From positions 1 to 20,464 of the IMG/VR virus record IMGVR_UViG_3300049597_000458: a DNA stretch of 20,464 nt. One strand, written 5' to 3'. The position numbers and the translations under genes are program-made. Positions 1 to 13,423 of the stretch are shown piece after piece; the stretch's first letter is position 1; each line of letters opens with the position of its first letter. The DNA comes from a virus. The notes below the pieces were generated by a model. The model ran no database searches. It worked only from the letters and a program-made list of their open reading frames with translations, and was not told the DNA's origin.

Positions 1-2
1 AC

Positions 3-110
3 AAGCCTAGTAGATCGAGCCTGCTTGGTCGGGAGGACTACGGCAGCAAGGTCGGGGCGCTCTGGTCGAAAGCCACTGAGGACGCCGACCGTCGCTTCAG
101 GCTGCGTTGA
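3..110 (+). CDS. Possible 3' end of a plus-strand gene (partial)
   Basis: Frame 3 of the plus strand is open from the left edge to a TGA at 108-110, giving 35 residues that end SKATEDADRRFRLR. The peptide has ordinary protein composition and most third positions are G or C, as in the neighbouring GC-rich genes. It would face the endonuclease at 131-667 tail to tail, with a 20-nt gap. No domain can be recognised from so short a piece. Another frame (frame 1) is also open across this stretch, so the call is tentative. Confidence 0.35.
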   Translation, partial: KPSRSSLLGREDYGSKVGALWSKATEDADRRFRLR

Positions 111-7181: not shown

Positions 7182-7907
7182 TTACTCCCAAGGCATCTTC
7201 TTGCCGCCCTTTGCTTTGGAGGTCTTGGCGGGAGGTGCCTCTTCTTCCTCTTCTTCCTCTTCTTCCTCTTCTTCCTCTTCTTCCTCTTCTTCCTCTTCTT
7301 CCTCGTCAGCGGGAGGCGAAACGACCTTGCCTTTCTTGGAGAGAGCTTTCAGCTCTTCCTGAGTAGGTTTTTTCTTGGCCTTGGAGGTCTTGGCCGGAGG
7401 AGTTTCCTCTTCCTCTTCTTCGTCCTCGTCCTCGTCCTCGTCGTTCTCCTCTTCCTCTTCCTCTTCCTCTTCCTCGTCCTCTTCTTCGCCCAAGGTAGTG
7501 CCTTCTTCGAAGATGGTGGAGATGTTGACGTAGGTTTTCCCGGCGTTGGCACCCTTGCCCTTGCTCTCGCGGGTGGTGATTTCCACCACCTTGCCGACGA
7601 ACTGAGCGAACCGCTTCGGGGTGATAACTCCTTCGAGGCCACAGGCTTCGGCGAATGCTTTGACTTCGCCCTCGGCGATGGAACGACGCTGTTCGTCGTC
7701 AGCCATGACTGCGATGTAGTAGCGGAAATCGCCCTTGTCCTTGTGGTGAAGTGTAACTTCGATTTGTTGAGTCTTCCCGGTAGGGTCAGACTTCACCGGC
7801 TTCATCACCATTCCGGTGATGGTGTAGTTGTGCGTCCCCAGAAGAAGATCGCGAATGGCGTTGTCGTTGATGGACTTCACCTTTTTAGTATCAATTTTCC
7901 AGCTCAT
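7182..7907 (-). CDS. Phage single-strand DNA-binding protein with two poly-Glu tracts
   Basis: 241 residues. Residues 1 to about 138 form a beta-rich domain with the look of the DUF669-type phage SSB family, including LLLGTHNYTITGMVMKPV, QQIEVTLHHKDKGDF, an AEACGLEGV helix, FVGKVVEITTRES, and KTYVNISTIFEEG. The remainder is extremely acidic low complexity: a first Glu/Asp tract, the linker PPAKTSKAK, a Lys-rich piece, a second almost pure Glu run of more than 20, a second PPAKTSKAK, and the end GGKKMPWE. Acidic C-terminal tails are typical of SSBs, but this length and duplication are unusual. It would coat single strands and pair with the Sak4-like ATPase upstream. The start follows a C/A-only leader with no SD. 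Confidence 0.75.
   Translation of the reverse strand: MSWKIDTKKVKSINDNAIRDLLLGTHNYTITGMVMKPVKSDPTGKTQQIEVTLHHKDKGDFRYYIAVMADDEQRRSIAEGEVKAFAEACGLEGVITPKRFAQFVGKVVEITTRESKGKGANAGKTYVNISTIFEEGTTLGEEEDEEEEEEEEEENDEDEDEDEEEEEETPPAKTSKAKKKPTQEELKALSKKGKVVSPPADEEEEEEEEEEEEEEEEEEEEEEAPPAKTSKAKGGKKMPWE
7239..7304. repeat. Tandem 9-bp repeat (CTCTTCTTC), coding poly-Glu
   Basis: About 66 bp of near-perfect tandem 9-mer, roughly seven copies, made only of C and T on the plus strand. On the minus (coding) strand it reads GAG/GAA Glu codons of the SSB tail. The tract is pure polypurine/polypyrimidine, so it is prone to slippage and could adopt triplex structure. Copy number may vary between isolates or be mis-assembled from short reads. 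Confidence 0.9.
7409..7494. repeat. Second low-complexity CT-rich tract (Glu/Asp-coding)
   Basis: Imperfect TCCTCT and TCCTCG repeats that encode the first acidic tract of the SSB tail (Glu runs with alternating Glu-Asp). It is less regular than the tract at 7239-7304. The two are flanked by copies of the same PPAKTSKAK-coding sequence, so the tail probably arose by internal duplication. Confidence 0.75.
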
Positions 7908-9906: not shown

Positions 9907-10010
9907 AGTGGTTGGTGGTTACGAGAGCGAAGTTGAACGGTTTTACGAATAACACAAGAATAATTTTCATTCTGGACAAAATAATTTTTCAGGGCTAGGA
10001 ACTCCCCGCC
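9907..10010. promoter_or_regulatory. Divergent control region between the leftward operon and the HTH/primase unit
   Basis: AT-rich, about 104 nt, separating genes that point away from each other, so it should hold promoters for both. A direct repeat of AATAATTTT occurs at 9959-9967 and 9980-9988 (each followed by T or C), one spacing of about two helical turns. It is a candidate operator for the HTH protein encoded immediately to the right. The last ~25 nt are GC-richer and contain AGGA 10 nt before the HTH start. Confidence 0.6.
9933..9961 (+). promoter_or_regulatory. Candidate sigma70-like promoter for the plus-strand unit
   Basis: TTGAAC, a 17-nt spacer, then AAGAAT. The -35 matches TTGACA at four or five positions and the -10 matches TATAAT at four. 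Transcription would start about 40 nt before the HTH ATG. The call is by consensus only, in an AT-rich region where chance matches are likely. Confidence 0.35.
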
Positions 10011-10232
10011 ATGTCTGACCAAGACCCCATGACCACACTGCGAACGCTGGTGCGGGCTTCGGATCTGCACCTCACGCAGATTTCAACACGAAGCTCCGTG
10101 CCCTATGGAACGCTCTATCGAGCTATCCGAAAAGGGAAAAGCCTGAATGTTGACGCTTACGCGGCAGTCTATCAGGTTCTAACAGGTAACAGTCTTGTGG
10201 CAACTACTACGATTCCAGTAGATGAGCACTGA
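10011..10232 (+). CDS. Small HTH DNA-binding protein (Cro/CI-like)
   Basis: 73 residues, with one helix-turn-helix: LRASDLHLTQISTRSSVPYG is not exact in the sequence, where the helices read LTQISTRSSVPYGTLYRAIRK (about 21-41) and continue with SLNVDAYAAVYQVLTG. This is the compact lambda-repressor-like arrangement in which the second helix reads DNA. No dimerisation or peptidase domain is present. It is the first gene after the divergent control region, so it probably represses one or both promoters. Its end overlaps the primase start by 11 nt, and that overlap adjoins the first CTACTA palindrome. It is a likely, but unproven, candidate to bind either that palindrome or the AATAATTTT repeats. 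Confidence 0.7.
   Translation: MSDQDPMTTLRTLVRASDLHLTQISTRSSVPYGTLYRAIRKGKSLNVDAYAAVYQVLTGNSLVATTTIPVDEH
10204..10221. promoter_or_regulatory. Palindrome copy 1, CTACTA-N6-CAGTAG
   Basis: An 18-bp inverted repeat with 6-nt spacer CGATTC and one mismatch to CTACTA-N6-TAGTAG. It ends immediately before the primase ATG at 10222, so a bound protein or an RNA hairpin here would cover the primase start. Confidence 0.7.
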
Positions 10233-12513
10233 ACAAATACCGGAAGAGCTGAAGAAGCTCCAGCAGTGGGTCTGCTTCGATGTGTCGGAGGATGGGAGAA
10301 AGCTCCCCTTCATCCCCGGAACCACAAAGCTCGCATCCTCCGACCGTCCGCACGAATGGCGTTCATTCCGCATGGCGCTCAAGGACGTGACAGAAGGGAA
10401 GCGCCAGCATCTCGGGTTTGCCTTCTCGTCCGATGACCCCTACGTCTTCCTTGACCTCGACGATCCATCCGACAAGGACCAACAGCGGATCTGGAAACGA
10501 CTCAACACCTATTCACAGCGCTCCGTCTCCGGCGACGGTTGCCATCTCATCTGCCGGGGCAATTTCAAGGGGAGCGGGCGGCACCCGGCCAAGAAGTCGA
10601 TGGGACTTTTCAAGGAACGCCGTTTCTGCCTGATGACAGGCGATGTGGTCGGAGGACGTTCTACTATAAACGTAGTAGCTGACGAAGACCTCGAAGCAAT
10701 CGCCCGCTGGCTGGGCGGAGGCACCAAGACCGGCGAGGAGTTGATCGAGCACGAATCAGAGATCCCGGACCTGACTGTCTATCAGATGGGTGTGGACAGG
10801 TTCCAAAAATACAAAGCTCTGGCCAACGGGGACTGGCAGCAGTTCGAGGAATACGGCGGAGACCACTCCACAGCCGACCACGCTTTCCTAGCGATGCTTT
10901 GTGACCTAACAGATTCCAACGATCAGGTCCGCAAACTCTTCTACTACTCCGGCATGTGGAATGATTCGCGTGCTGCCAAGAAAGCCGCCCACGGTCTCCA
11001 CGGATACGTCAACCGGACGATCAAGAAGGTCCGCTCTGAGCAGGCGAGGGTTCAAGCAATCGAGGACAAAATCACCTTGGCACTCTTCGAGGAAGAAGAG
11101 ATCCCTGAGCAACCTGTAGAAACTACTATGCCCGTAGTAATTGAAAAGACCGGCAGCACCGACCTGATTGAGAGCTTACCTGACGGACTAATCAAGCAGG
11201 CAGCTCGATACGTCCACAAGTCGAGCATTCTCCCGCTACAGGAGTCCTCCCTCCTCGCTGCTCTAACACTGTTCTCCGGGATGTGTGGGCGTGCGTGGCT
11301 GACACCGACAATGTCGGGGTTGAATCTGTGGCTCGTCCTCGTCGCCGACACTGGATCTGGAAAGGACCAGTTCAACAAAGGATTGGGGCGCATCCTCGGG
11401 GCACTGGCGAAGCGCCAGCCATCCGCGCTCAACATCCTCGGCGGTGAGTTCGTATCCGGCCCTGCGGTCGAGCAGGCGTTACAGGACACCAAACGGTATA
11501 TCTCCTACGTCCCCGAGTTCGGCCACTTCTTTCAGCGCGTCAGCAACCCCAACGCTCCCGACCACATGAAGACGCTCCAGCAGCAGCTTCTCGACGCATT
11601 CAACGCCGCCGACAGATCGGGTCAGCTCAGGTGCCGAAAGCGGGCGCAGAGAGCGGAAGGTCCACCGATCATCGAGCGCCCGTGCGTGTGCCTTGTCGGA
11701 GAGACCACACCGACCTCGATGTTCGACAGCCTATCTATCAGGGACATTTCAACCGGCTTCCTCCCACGTCTCACCATCTTGGAGTCAGCGCCGGATTCGT
11801 GGTCGGACGAGGAGAACCCACAACACGGAGCGCTCCCTAGCAAGAAGTTCATGGACAAACTTGAGGAGTTGTTCATCGTCACCAACGCCGCCGATCTAAA
11901 GAATAGTTATACAGTCGTCGAACAGACAGAGGCGGCAGAGAAGCTCCTGAAGGCTTACAGATACAACAAACGTAAAATCACACGTAACTGCGACTCCCCG
12001 GTTGAGAAGGATGTCATCAACCGCGCTGGACTAAAGGTTCTCCGCTTGGCATCTCTTCTGGCCATTGCGGAGGACTTCTACAATCCGACCATTTCAGTAG
12101 AGCACGCAAAATGGTCTATCAACTTTATTGATAGAACCGACGAGGCTGTTCTCCAGCGCTTTACCTCCGGCAACGTCGGACAAGGTCAAGTCAAGCAGGA
12201 GACGGAGATCCTAAGAGTTGTTAGAAAGCTGGCGCAAACCAGTGTCAAGGAGCGCATCCGCATGAAGATGGTTCCTAAAGTGGCAAAGGACCGGACTGTC
12301 ATCCCCTACGGAACACTCAAGAACCGCTGTGTCGGTCTATCATGCTTTGCTTCTGATAGAGCTGGTGCTGTTAGTGCCTTCGACAAGGCTGTCAAAAACC
12401 TCAACGAGTCAGGCGTCCTCATCACGCTACCACAACAAATGGCGGCTGATAGATACGACACCGTCCGTGGAAAACTCCTATTCTACGACAAAGATGCCGA
12501 CACGACCGATTGA
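10222..12513 (+). CDS. Primase-helicase: AEP-type primase domain fused to DUF3987-like ATPase
   Basis: 763 residues. Residues 1 to ~170 look like an archaeo-eukaryotic primase/polymerase core: VFLDLDDP with Asp78 and Asp80, SVSGDGCHLICRG with His108, and RRFCLMTG near 133-140. A small helical domain follows (STADHAFLAMLCDLTDSN and LFYYSGMW), like the primase C-terminal or helix-bundle domain of primase-polymerases. From ~315 is a DUF3987-type P-loop module with ADTGSGKD (375-382), a Glu in YISYVPEFGH (427-436) and GFLPRL (512-517). Asp382 replaces the Ser/Thr usual after the P-loop Lys. Together it should prime and help unwind DNA at the phage fork. The start overlaps the HTH stop by 11 nt. 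It contains palindrome copies 2 and 3. Confidence 0.88.
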   Translation: MSTEQIPEELKKLQQWVCFDVSEDGRKLPFIPGTTKLASSDRPHEWRSFRMALKDVTEGKRQHLGFAFSSDDPYVFLDLDDPSDKDQQRIWKRLNTYSQRSVSGDGCHLICRGNFKGSGRHPAKKSMGLFKERRFCLMTGDVVGGRSTINVVADEDLEAIARWLGGGTKTGEELIEHESEIPDLTVYQMGVDRFQKYKALANGDWQQFEEYGGDHSTADHAFLAMLCDLTDSNDQVRKLFYYSGMWNDSRAAKKAAHGLHGYVNRTIKKVRSEQARVQAIEDKITLALFEEEEIPEQPVETTMPVVIEKTGSTDLIESLPDGLIKQAARYVHKSSILPLQESSLLAALTLFSGMCGRAWLTPTMSGLNLWLVLVADTGSGKDQFNKGLGRILGALAKRQPSALNILGGEFVSGPAVEQALQDTKRYISYVPEFGHFFQRVSNPNAPDHMKTLQQQLLDAFNAADRSGQLRCRKRAQRAEGPPIIERPCVCLVGETTPTSMFDSLSIRDISTGFLPRLTILESAPDSWSDEENPQHGALPSKKFMDKLEELFIVTNAADLKNSYTVVEQTEAAEKLLKAYRYNKRKITRNCDSPVEKDVINRAGLKVLRLASLLAIAEDFYNPTISVEHAKWSINFIDRTDEAVLQRFTSGNVGQGQVKQETEILRVVRKLAQTSVKERIRMKMVPKVAKDRTVIPYGTLKNRCVGLSCFASDRAGAVSAFDKAVKNLNESGVLITLPQQMAADRYDTVRGKLLFYDKDADTTD
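10661..10678. promoter_or_regulatory. Palindrome copy 2, CTACTA-N6-TAGTAG
   Basis: A perfect 6-bp inverted repeat with 6-nt spacer TAAACG inside the primase gene (codons for RSTINVVA). It has the same spacing as the other three copies. Confidence 0.75.
11123..11140. promoter_or_regulatory. Palindrome copy 3, CTACTA-N6-TAGTAA
   Basis: Spacer TGCCCG with one mismatch in the outermost base; the inner five base pairs (TACTA/TAGTA) are perfect. It lies in the primase gene, in the linker between the primase and ATPase domains. Confidence 0.65.
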
Positions 12514-13003
12514 TCGAATCCGTGAGAGCGGGTTCTTCGAACTTAAAATCAACCCCGGTGGAGGGTTGTGTCATGTGAAAGGGTGCAAGAATAGTTGCTC
12601 TGTGAAGGGGCTGGATCTTTGCCAGAAGCACTACCGGCAGTTTTGGAGATACGAGAACCCACAACGCTCTTCGTATGCCGTGCTCAAGTGTCACGCCAAG
12701 CAGCGAGGAATCAAGTTCACCATAAGCTTTGACTACTACTGTGGTCTAACAGACGCACTTAGCTATCACGATAGGGGTGCCGAAAACAGAGGTGACGTTC
12801 TAACAATAGACCGTGTCGATGCTACCAAAGGATATGAACCGGGCAATCTCAGAATCGTCACACACATTGAGAACTCTATCAAAGGGAACCGTGAAAGATT
12901 CCTCCCTGAGCATATCCAGCACATGCTTCAACGCCGTCGTGCAGAAGCCTTGGAGACCTTAGAGCGCTTCGAAGAAGAGGAAGAAGAGCGCTTTCCGTTC
13001 TGA
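12494..13003 (+). CDS. HNH endonuclease with N-terminal zinc finger
   Basis: 169 residues from the ATG at 12494, inside the primase 3' end (20-nt overlap). The N-terminal part has CHVKGCKNSCSVKG followed by LCQKHYRQFW, a Cys/His cluster that looks like a zinc finger. The HNH core is LTIDRVDATKGYEPGNLRIV followed by THIENSIKGNR, giving Asp and the conserved GY..GN and N..K pattern of this HNH branch. It is likely a free-standing homing or nicking nuclease placed behind the primase gene, as the first HNH is behind the polymerase gene. The C-terminus is FEEEEEERFPF, an acidic run capped by Pro-Phe, like the tip of SSB. Its 3' end overlaps the oppositely oriented gene by 76 nt. Confidence 0.8.
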   Translation: MPTRPIDRIRESGFFELKINPGGGLCHVKGCKNSCSVKGLDLCQKHYRQFWRYENPQRSSYAVLKCHAKQRGIKFTISFDYYCGLTDALSYHDRGAENRGDVLTIDRVDATKGYEPGNLRIVTHIENSIKGNRERFLPEHIQHMLQRRRAEALETLERFEEEEEERFPF

Positions 13004-13299
13004 ATCACAGGCACCTCCAGCAGATGCGCGGCGGTGGCAAGGACACGGAGGGGTAGCTTGATGTGGCTACCACCTGCCGATAAACCTTCAGGATCTATCA
13101 GATCCCTGTGAACGTGCTTGGCTTTCTTCCACTCACGTTTCAAGCGTTGTGCCAGTTGATCGAACTCGTGATCCTGAATGATTGAACTACTATAGACATA
13201 GTAGCAAGCGCAATGGAGCAAGTAATGAGGGACGAGCATCGAAGACGGCAGACTCTCGATGTAGCGGCTATTCTGGAAGAATAAAACGTCCGGGTGCAT
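12928..13299 (-). CDS. LigA-N-terminal-like (ligase Ia-domain-related) phage protein
   Basis: 123 residues from the ATG at 13299; a GTG at 13350 and an ATG at 13239 are alternatives. The core MLVPHYLLHCACYYVYSSS, followed by IIQDHEFDQLAQRLKREW and then HVHRDLIDPEGLSAGGSH, resembles the small phage proteins annotated as ligase LigA-related. Those match the Ia domain of NAD-dependent ligase ('YYvlD.p.isD.eYD.L...L'). There is no adenylation domain, so it cannot ligate on its own; an NAD- or nucleotide-binding role is possible. The C-terminus (RSSSSSSKRSKVSKASARRR) is antisense to the Glu tail of the HNH gene and may be a product of that overlap. Palindrome copy 4 lies within it. Confidence 0.7.
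   Translation of the reverse strand: MHPDVLFFQNSRYIESLPSSMLVPHYLLHCACYYVYSSSIIQDHEFDQLAQRLKREWKKAKHVHRDLIDPEGLSAGGSHIKLPLRVLATAAHLLEVPVIQNGKRSSSSSSKRSKVSKASARRR
13187..13204. promoter_or_regulatory. Palindrome copy 4, CTACTA-N6-TAGTAG
   Basis: A perfect copy with spacer TAGACA; the symmetry extends one further base pair inward (CTACTAT-AGAC-ATAGTAG). It lies in a gene on the opposite strand from copies 1-3 and in a different reading frame, which argues that the DNA rather than the protein sequence is conserved. Confidence 0.75.
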
Positions 13300-13423
13300 A
13301 AGAAAGGGTCTCCAGCCATCTCCTCTGGATTTCACAGAGAGACCTCTCACCGAAAGGGTGGGTTACACCTGAGATGACTGGAGTTTGCACGGTTCATTTA
13401 TTGTGTGGGTCACCTGTGCTTGG

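Follow-up and report, generated by a model that had tools for sequence, protein, structure and literature searches.

The DNA analysed here in its entire length of 20,464 nucleotides, referred to in the following as the window, is a viral contig (IMG/VR record IMGVR_UViG_3300049597_000458). It carries a gene for a 73-amino-acid XRE-like helix-turn-helix (HTH) protein (10011..10232, plus strand) upstream of a gene for a DNA primase/helicase (10222..12513, plus strand; phrog_3022, DUF3987), an architecture that is conserved and common to many cultured phages. A minus-strand gene whose product contains an NAD-ligase N-terminal-like domain (PF22745) is located at 12928..13350, and the divergent intergenic region upstream of the HTH-primase pair (9907..10010) is likely to serve as a promoter. 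A second contig, G001, represents nearly the same phage, with 99.96% identity across 19 kb. Several other features of this genomic neighborhood deserve mention: an acyl-carrier-protein gene (PF00550; 7961-8197) lies within the replication gene block; a protein with two long poly-Glu tracts is encoded in an SSB-like position by near-repetitive DNA (7182-7907); and an HNH endonuclease gene (127-679) is inserted at the 3' end of the DNA polymerase gene when compared with the otherwise near-identical G001. A homologue of this endonuclease (34% identical) is found at the same place in the related phage G002.

The original prediction for this region held that four copies of the palindrome CTACTA-N6-TAGTAG surround the primase gene. 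A search of the whole window allowing up to two mismatches recovered precisely these copies, starting at 10204 (one mismatch), 10661 (none), 11123 (one) and 13187 (none), and no others; 0.17 copies would be expected, and none of 100 shuffles of the window reached four. When all 4096 6-mer half-sites were enumerated with 15 spacers (0-14; 61,440 tests), CTACTA-N6 ranked first in the window with a p of 6e-8 (about 0.004 after correction for all half-sites and spacers), and a spacing of 6 was the only one enriched at up to one mismatch. The expected counts and this enumeration rule out chance or a codon artefact as the source of the sites.

Site 1 (10204..10221; CTACTACGATTCCAGTAG; 29.7 bits with the matrix introduced below; extended 24-bp form 10201-10224) is positioned at the end of the HTH gene and directly adjoins the primase ATG at 10222, as had been claimed. 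Sites 2 (10661..10678; CTACTATAAACGTAGTAG; perfect) and 3 (11123..11140; CTACTATGCCCGTAGTAA) are both embedded in the primase gene, the former in codons for RSTINVV and the latter in a variable linker (ETTMPVV). Hence, copies 1-3 do reside in plus-strand genes, while site 4 (13187..13204; CTACTATAGACATAGTAG; perfect) is found in the minus-strand ligase-N-domain-like gene and in a different frame. A fifth copy, ATACTACAAGCCTAGTAG, had been missed, as it is cut by the left end of the window: its last 13 bases correspond to positions 1..13, and the complete site (24.1 bits) is present in G001 (G001:10470-10487). There it lies near the 3' end of a giant open reading frame of 3526 amino acids (L052:4-10584) that ends beside the DNA polymerase gene. 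A conserved peptide of the type TTxxVV can be ruled out as an explanation for the palindromes, since some of them are read in frames that yield CYYVYSSS or NYYNLRSL, and the codons that form them include rare ones.

The related phage G002 (64.7 kb) closes as a circle, its ends being spanned by G004, a contig of the same phage. It possesses the same gene order, polA-clamp-helicase-exonuclease-SSB / HTH-primase, with replication proteins that are 45-55% identical to those of the window (primase, 54%). Had the spacing been lost in relatives, the case for the palindrome would have been undermined; instead, G002 contains eight sites (24-33 bits), five of them with at most one mismatch and more with two, and in each of them the 6-nt spacing is kept. 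All eight fall within 12.9 of the 64.7 kb, and two pairs of sites are spaced 27 bp apart. Window sites 2 and 3 have counterparts in G002, site 2 at the same position (L006:10428) and site 3 as GAAACTACTA-N6-TAGTA within an otherwise diverged linker (L006:10866); the remaining sites have none. A stretch encoding TGDVV is particularly instructive: the window uses the codons GAT GTG GTC, whereas G002 uses GAC GTA GTA and thereby gains a site; GTA accounts for 8% of the Val codons in the genes of the window. As the peptide is unchanged while synonymous codons create the G002 site, selection acts on the DNA. Taken together, 11 of the 13 phage sites are located in coding DNA, one lies between convergent genes, and one in a likely control region. 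The latter segment of G002 (L051:2154-2239; at about 63.2 kb) has the appearance of a control region, in which two copies of a different palindrome, CATACGACAAAATTGTCGCATG, 58 bp apart, flank an intergenic CTACTA-type site.

The palindromes are not a general feature of phages with an HTH-primase pair, since seven distant cultured phages of this kind lack any comparable palindrome family. No sites were present in the close relative G003 (polA 59%, primase 50%), which has the HTH-primase pair, and no further clustered set emerged from 81 and 14 IMG/VR matches that we inspected for a wider phage habit. Our scan of GTDB with the primase detected no prophage, PF00589 integrases were absent from four related records, and the structural proteins of G002 have no relatives among cultured phages.

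From the 13 sites of the window and G002, we built a scoring matrix whose scores are bimodal, with true sites at 24-33 bits and the next best sequences at 11.2 bits or below. The symmetrised full site comprises about 24 bp and reads AWCTACTAYR-NN-YRTAGTAGWT; among the 26 half-sites, A is found at -11 in 23, a purine at -2 in all 26, and TAC at -8 to -6 is invariant. The bases across the dyad vary independently, and their pairing never exceeds what independence predicts; at positions +-2, the purine/pyrimidine class is kept in 13 of 13 sites, with pairing possible in just two of them. This lack of covariation is what one would expect of a symmetric protein-DNA dimer site and not of an RNA stem. 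RNA hairpins or cruciforms functioning in transcripts, suggested at the outset by the palindromic nature of the sites, are contradicted by these data and have, in our opinion, next to no chance of being the correct explanation. What has gained support from the sequence comparisons is the other part of the original prediction, namely that the palindromes are scattered targets of a protein that binds DNA as a dimer and that selection operates on the DNA rather than on a peptide.

Which protein might read these sites? The adjacent 73-residue HTH protein had been nominated, and a phage-encoded reader of this type, or another DNA-binding protein that escaped detection, would make the match to bacterial operators and host sites described below a secondary matter. 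The HTH gene is indeed adjacent and conserved, and the sites cluster around it. However, its predicted structure consists of four helices in an XRE-like fold that lacks a wing, and its best structural neighbors, albeit with weak E-values, are mostly XRE proteins (C.Esp1396I, HipB, SinR). Comparing the window with G002 and G003, identity between the HTH proteins amounts to 22-38%; the homologues of the window protein show just 22-24% identity and a different recognition helix, yet the site is unchanged in G002. Furthermore, the HTH proteins of G003 and G002 share 38% identity, and G003 nevertheless carries no sites, as is also the case for the distant relatives, so that the presence of the sites does not follow the HTH protein. 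Since the palindrome probably serves as a BlaI operator elsewhere and PF03965 had no match, even at an E-value of 10, in any of eight phage records, among them the closed G002, the 73-residue protein is probably not the reader, and we judge a phage-encoded reader in general to be highly improbable. Origin-binding by the primase, which had also been considered, found no support.

An alternative candidate emerged from bacterial genomes. The 22-bp consensus has 40 exact matches in GTDB (one genome per species, 84,980 species), of which about 15 are expected by a simple base-count estimate. Of the 40, 19 coincide with the start of a gene recognised by a BlaI profile made for this analysis; of nine adjoining genes that were tested, eight belong to PF03965 and one encodes an M56 BlaR1 peptidase with a PF03965 neighbor. 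In several phyla the exact palindrome precedes blaI-M56 operons, many blaI promoters contain a second, tandem copy, and in 11 of 11 of the GTDB-match genomes with one or two sites these were found at blaI. BlaI paralogues with the recognition helix AY[TN]TV carry TACTA operators; those of the WHEKT, GYTTTLK and SYSAI classes mostly carry different ones. Individual helix/operator pairs among the paralogues (L285-L314, L234-L272) are AYTTV-TACTA, GYTTTLK-TACGA and WHEKT-GACTACA, and a table relating recognition helix to operator should be reusable as a prediction tool. Operators of the CopY/BlaI/MecI family have a TACA-NN-TGTA core (PMC7253601), corresponding to that of the palindrome. The phage sites share with these operators the half-site geometry TACTA-YR-NN-YR-TAGTA, and they match the sequence at the 19 blaI starts, a palindrome with a TAYR-NN-YRTA core, which makes it probable that a protein of this family can read them. 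They differ in location: the phage sites, which are mostly coding, and those of the bacterial genome described next are dispersed in coding DNA and not concentrated at promoters of BlaI targets, and the phages themselves have no blaI.

This genome, G068, is a metagenome-assembled genome titled Akkermansia muciniphila ME-21oct19-55 (Verrucomicrobiota), a title that may be wrong; it entered our analysis through having one site, and 2.33 of its 3.4 Mb were read. Several findings connect it with the phages. G002 contains a full-length tmRNA gene (L006:8879-9266, minus strand; Rfam, 127.8 bits) just left of the HTH-primase region, which matches G068 with 87% identity over 75 nt (E 5e-18; all other genomes at least 0.016) in a comparison of one phage with 14 genomes of various phyla, G068 being the one member of the Verrucomicrobiota. 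This tmRNA has an unusually long predicted tag, ADSNEFAPSLEEANAILSFHGFVERELAAA, and is absent from the window. Moreover, tetranucleotide use places all phages closest to G068 among the genomes compared. On the basis of the 75-nt tmRNA match, the tetranucleotide similarity and the shared site, the G068 lineage is the likely host, with the evidence backing the phylum better than the genus.

The exact sequence CTACTAYRNNYRTAGTAG occurs seven times in G068 and 0-2 times in each of the other genomes among 388 Verrucomicrobiota. The core TACTA-N6-TAGTA, found 38 times in the 2.33 Mb against 0.1 expected (log10 p -82), leads 15,360 palindromes in over-representation by a wide margin, the excess being nearly confined to spacing 6; most G068 sites were scored by the phage-trained matrix, of which the exact-core count of 38 is independent. 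Their flanks match the phage preferences at -11, -10, -9, -3 and -2. Site density is about 16 per Mb, and the phages, with 5-8 sites, are roughly 3-10 times denser. Among 36 strong sites, 27 are located in coding DNA and four between convergent genes; the genes holding sites encode MutS, RsgA, MgsA/RarA, a RecQ-like DEAD-box helicase, UbiA-family and PfkB proteins and other core functions. The sites are unevenly distributed along the chromosome (p 5e-5), no exact site was found on the contigs that carry dnaA and a soj-like parA, and across the unordered contigs strong GC skew goes with fewer sites (p 0.001). The same site-bearing sequence recurs at three contig ends (C1:25, C15:25, C4:185017) and is probably a repeat that breaks the assembly. 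Since the sites are mostly coding and uneven, they do not form a promoter regulon. A conventional blaI-M56 regulon accounts for ordinary bacteria with one or two sites and does not fit G068.

Two PF03965 proteins are encoded by G068. One (159 amino acids; E 2.5e-25) belongs to the AYTTV class, has a strong site in its own promoter, and ends in a lysine/alanine-rich, histone-H1-like tail, SKKSVKKSAEPAKKISAAKKSVAKKVAKKTAKK; its gene (C22:18661-19140) is located near ftsK with no M56 gene alongside. The second, on C28, differs in its recognition helix and lacks a site. The tailed BlaI-family protein is the probable reader of the G068 sites. With a winged-helix repressor domain joined to an H1-like tail, and with its sites dispersed, it may organise the chromosome, an architectural role that we infer from the basic tail and the uneven, non-promoter distribution of the sites.

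Collectively, these data lend themselves to a model that we favor with moderate confidence: the phage palindromes may be dispersed sites of a host-encoded, BlaI-derived chromosome protein, carried around the replication genes. The predicted reader is a dimeric winged-helix BlaI/MecI protein (PF03965; class AYTTV) supplied by the host and not by the phage. Its dimers would bind the roughly 24-bp sites around the HTH-primase pair and neighboring genes, and the bound dimers would draw phage DNA, as it replicates, into the host system that organises the chromosome. The absence of sites from the close relative G003 counts against this model, and the phage site L051:2186, which does resemble a promoter operator, counts against an architectural role.

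The same protein could be exploited in other ways. As the phage genome multiplies, the sites might act as an operator sponge that titrates the host BlaI-family protein, so that host promoters are freed or the organisation of the host chromosome is disturbed; their number would then matter and their position hardly at all. The near-consensus quality of the sites and their prevalence in coding DNA, with one between convergent genes, are in keeping with titration, and since ordinary BlaI hosts have just one or two operators per genome, even a small number of phage copies would suffice to exceed them. However, with sites in the tens in the likely host, titration would need many phage copies, and it does not call for the crowding of sites observed in G002; we therefore regard a sponge as rather unlikely. 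In another reading, early phage genes would be controlled by the host repressor, with BlaI-type dimers forming roadblocks or DNA loops over the HTH-primase genes and keeping the replication genes repressed until the host removes the repressor: three sites in the window and four in G002 are no more than 1 kb away from where the HTH and primase genes meet, and one G002 site sits in the complex intergenic region between two copies of another palindrome. Yet the divergent promoter region upstream of the HTH gene contains no site, and the host sites are likewise non-promoter, which leaves transcriptional control by a host repressor distinctly unlikely. We thus rank recruitment first, followed by titration and then by transcriptional silencing, mechanisms that are not firmly separated. 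The most far-reaching version, offered tentatively as a possibility that falls short of being probable, is that a Verrucomicrobiota lineage organises its chromosome by a BlaI-derived, H1-tailed protein reading tens of 24-bp palindromes, and that the phage, one codon after another, evolved a dense set of them for the recruitment or titration of this protein during replication.

If so, a little-studied phylum would have converted a family of repressors, known from resistance to beta-lactams and copper, into a chromosome organiser, and the architectural sites of the host chromosome would be mimicked by a phage within its own genes. Site, protein and phage would then provide a sequence-defined handle on nucleoid organisation in the Verrucomicrobiota and on the use or disruption of host chromosome proteins by phages. 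In the literature that we searched, with partial coverage, no report of such an arrangement of phage and host sites was found. Mycobacteriophage stoperators are asymmetric repressor sites spread over the phage genome and read by a phage-encoded repressor (PMC9283540). The presence of many sites across a phage genome is a shared trait, but the palindrome studied here is symmetric and probably read by the host, with no phage-encoded reader found. Phage-plasmids related to N15 possess dispersed centromere sites, which resemble the present palindromes in being a small number of inverted repeats distributed over replication genes; in contrast to N15-like phage-plasmids, an unsystematic scan revealed no partition protein among the phage proteins. 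Canonical parS (TGTTTCACGTGAAACA-like) differs in sequence from the palindrome and is absent, within two mismatches, from the 2.33 Mb of G068. Chromosome-domain sites of the MatP/matS type are dispersed palindromes, and the G068 sites resemble them in being dispersed, uneven, coding and missing from the dnaA and soj-like parA contigs. The site and protein family of MatP/matS are unrelated to those of G068. Nevertheless, the 38 sites of G068 are many, dispersed, non-promoter and non-random in their distribution (p 5e-5), as is typical of matS- and parS-like sites, and should the chromosome-organising reading be correct, they would constitute a new system of this kind.
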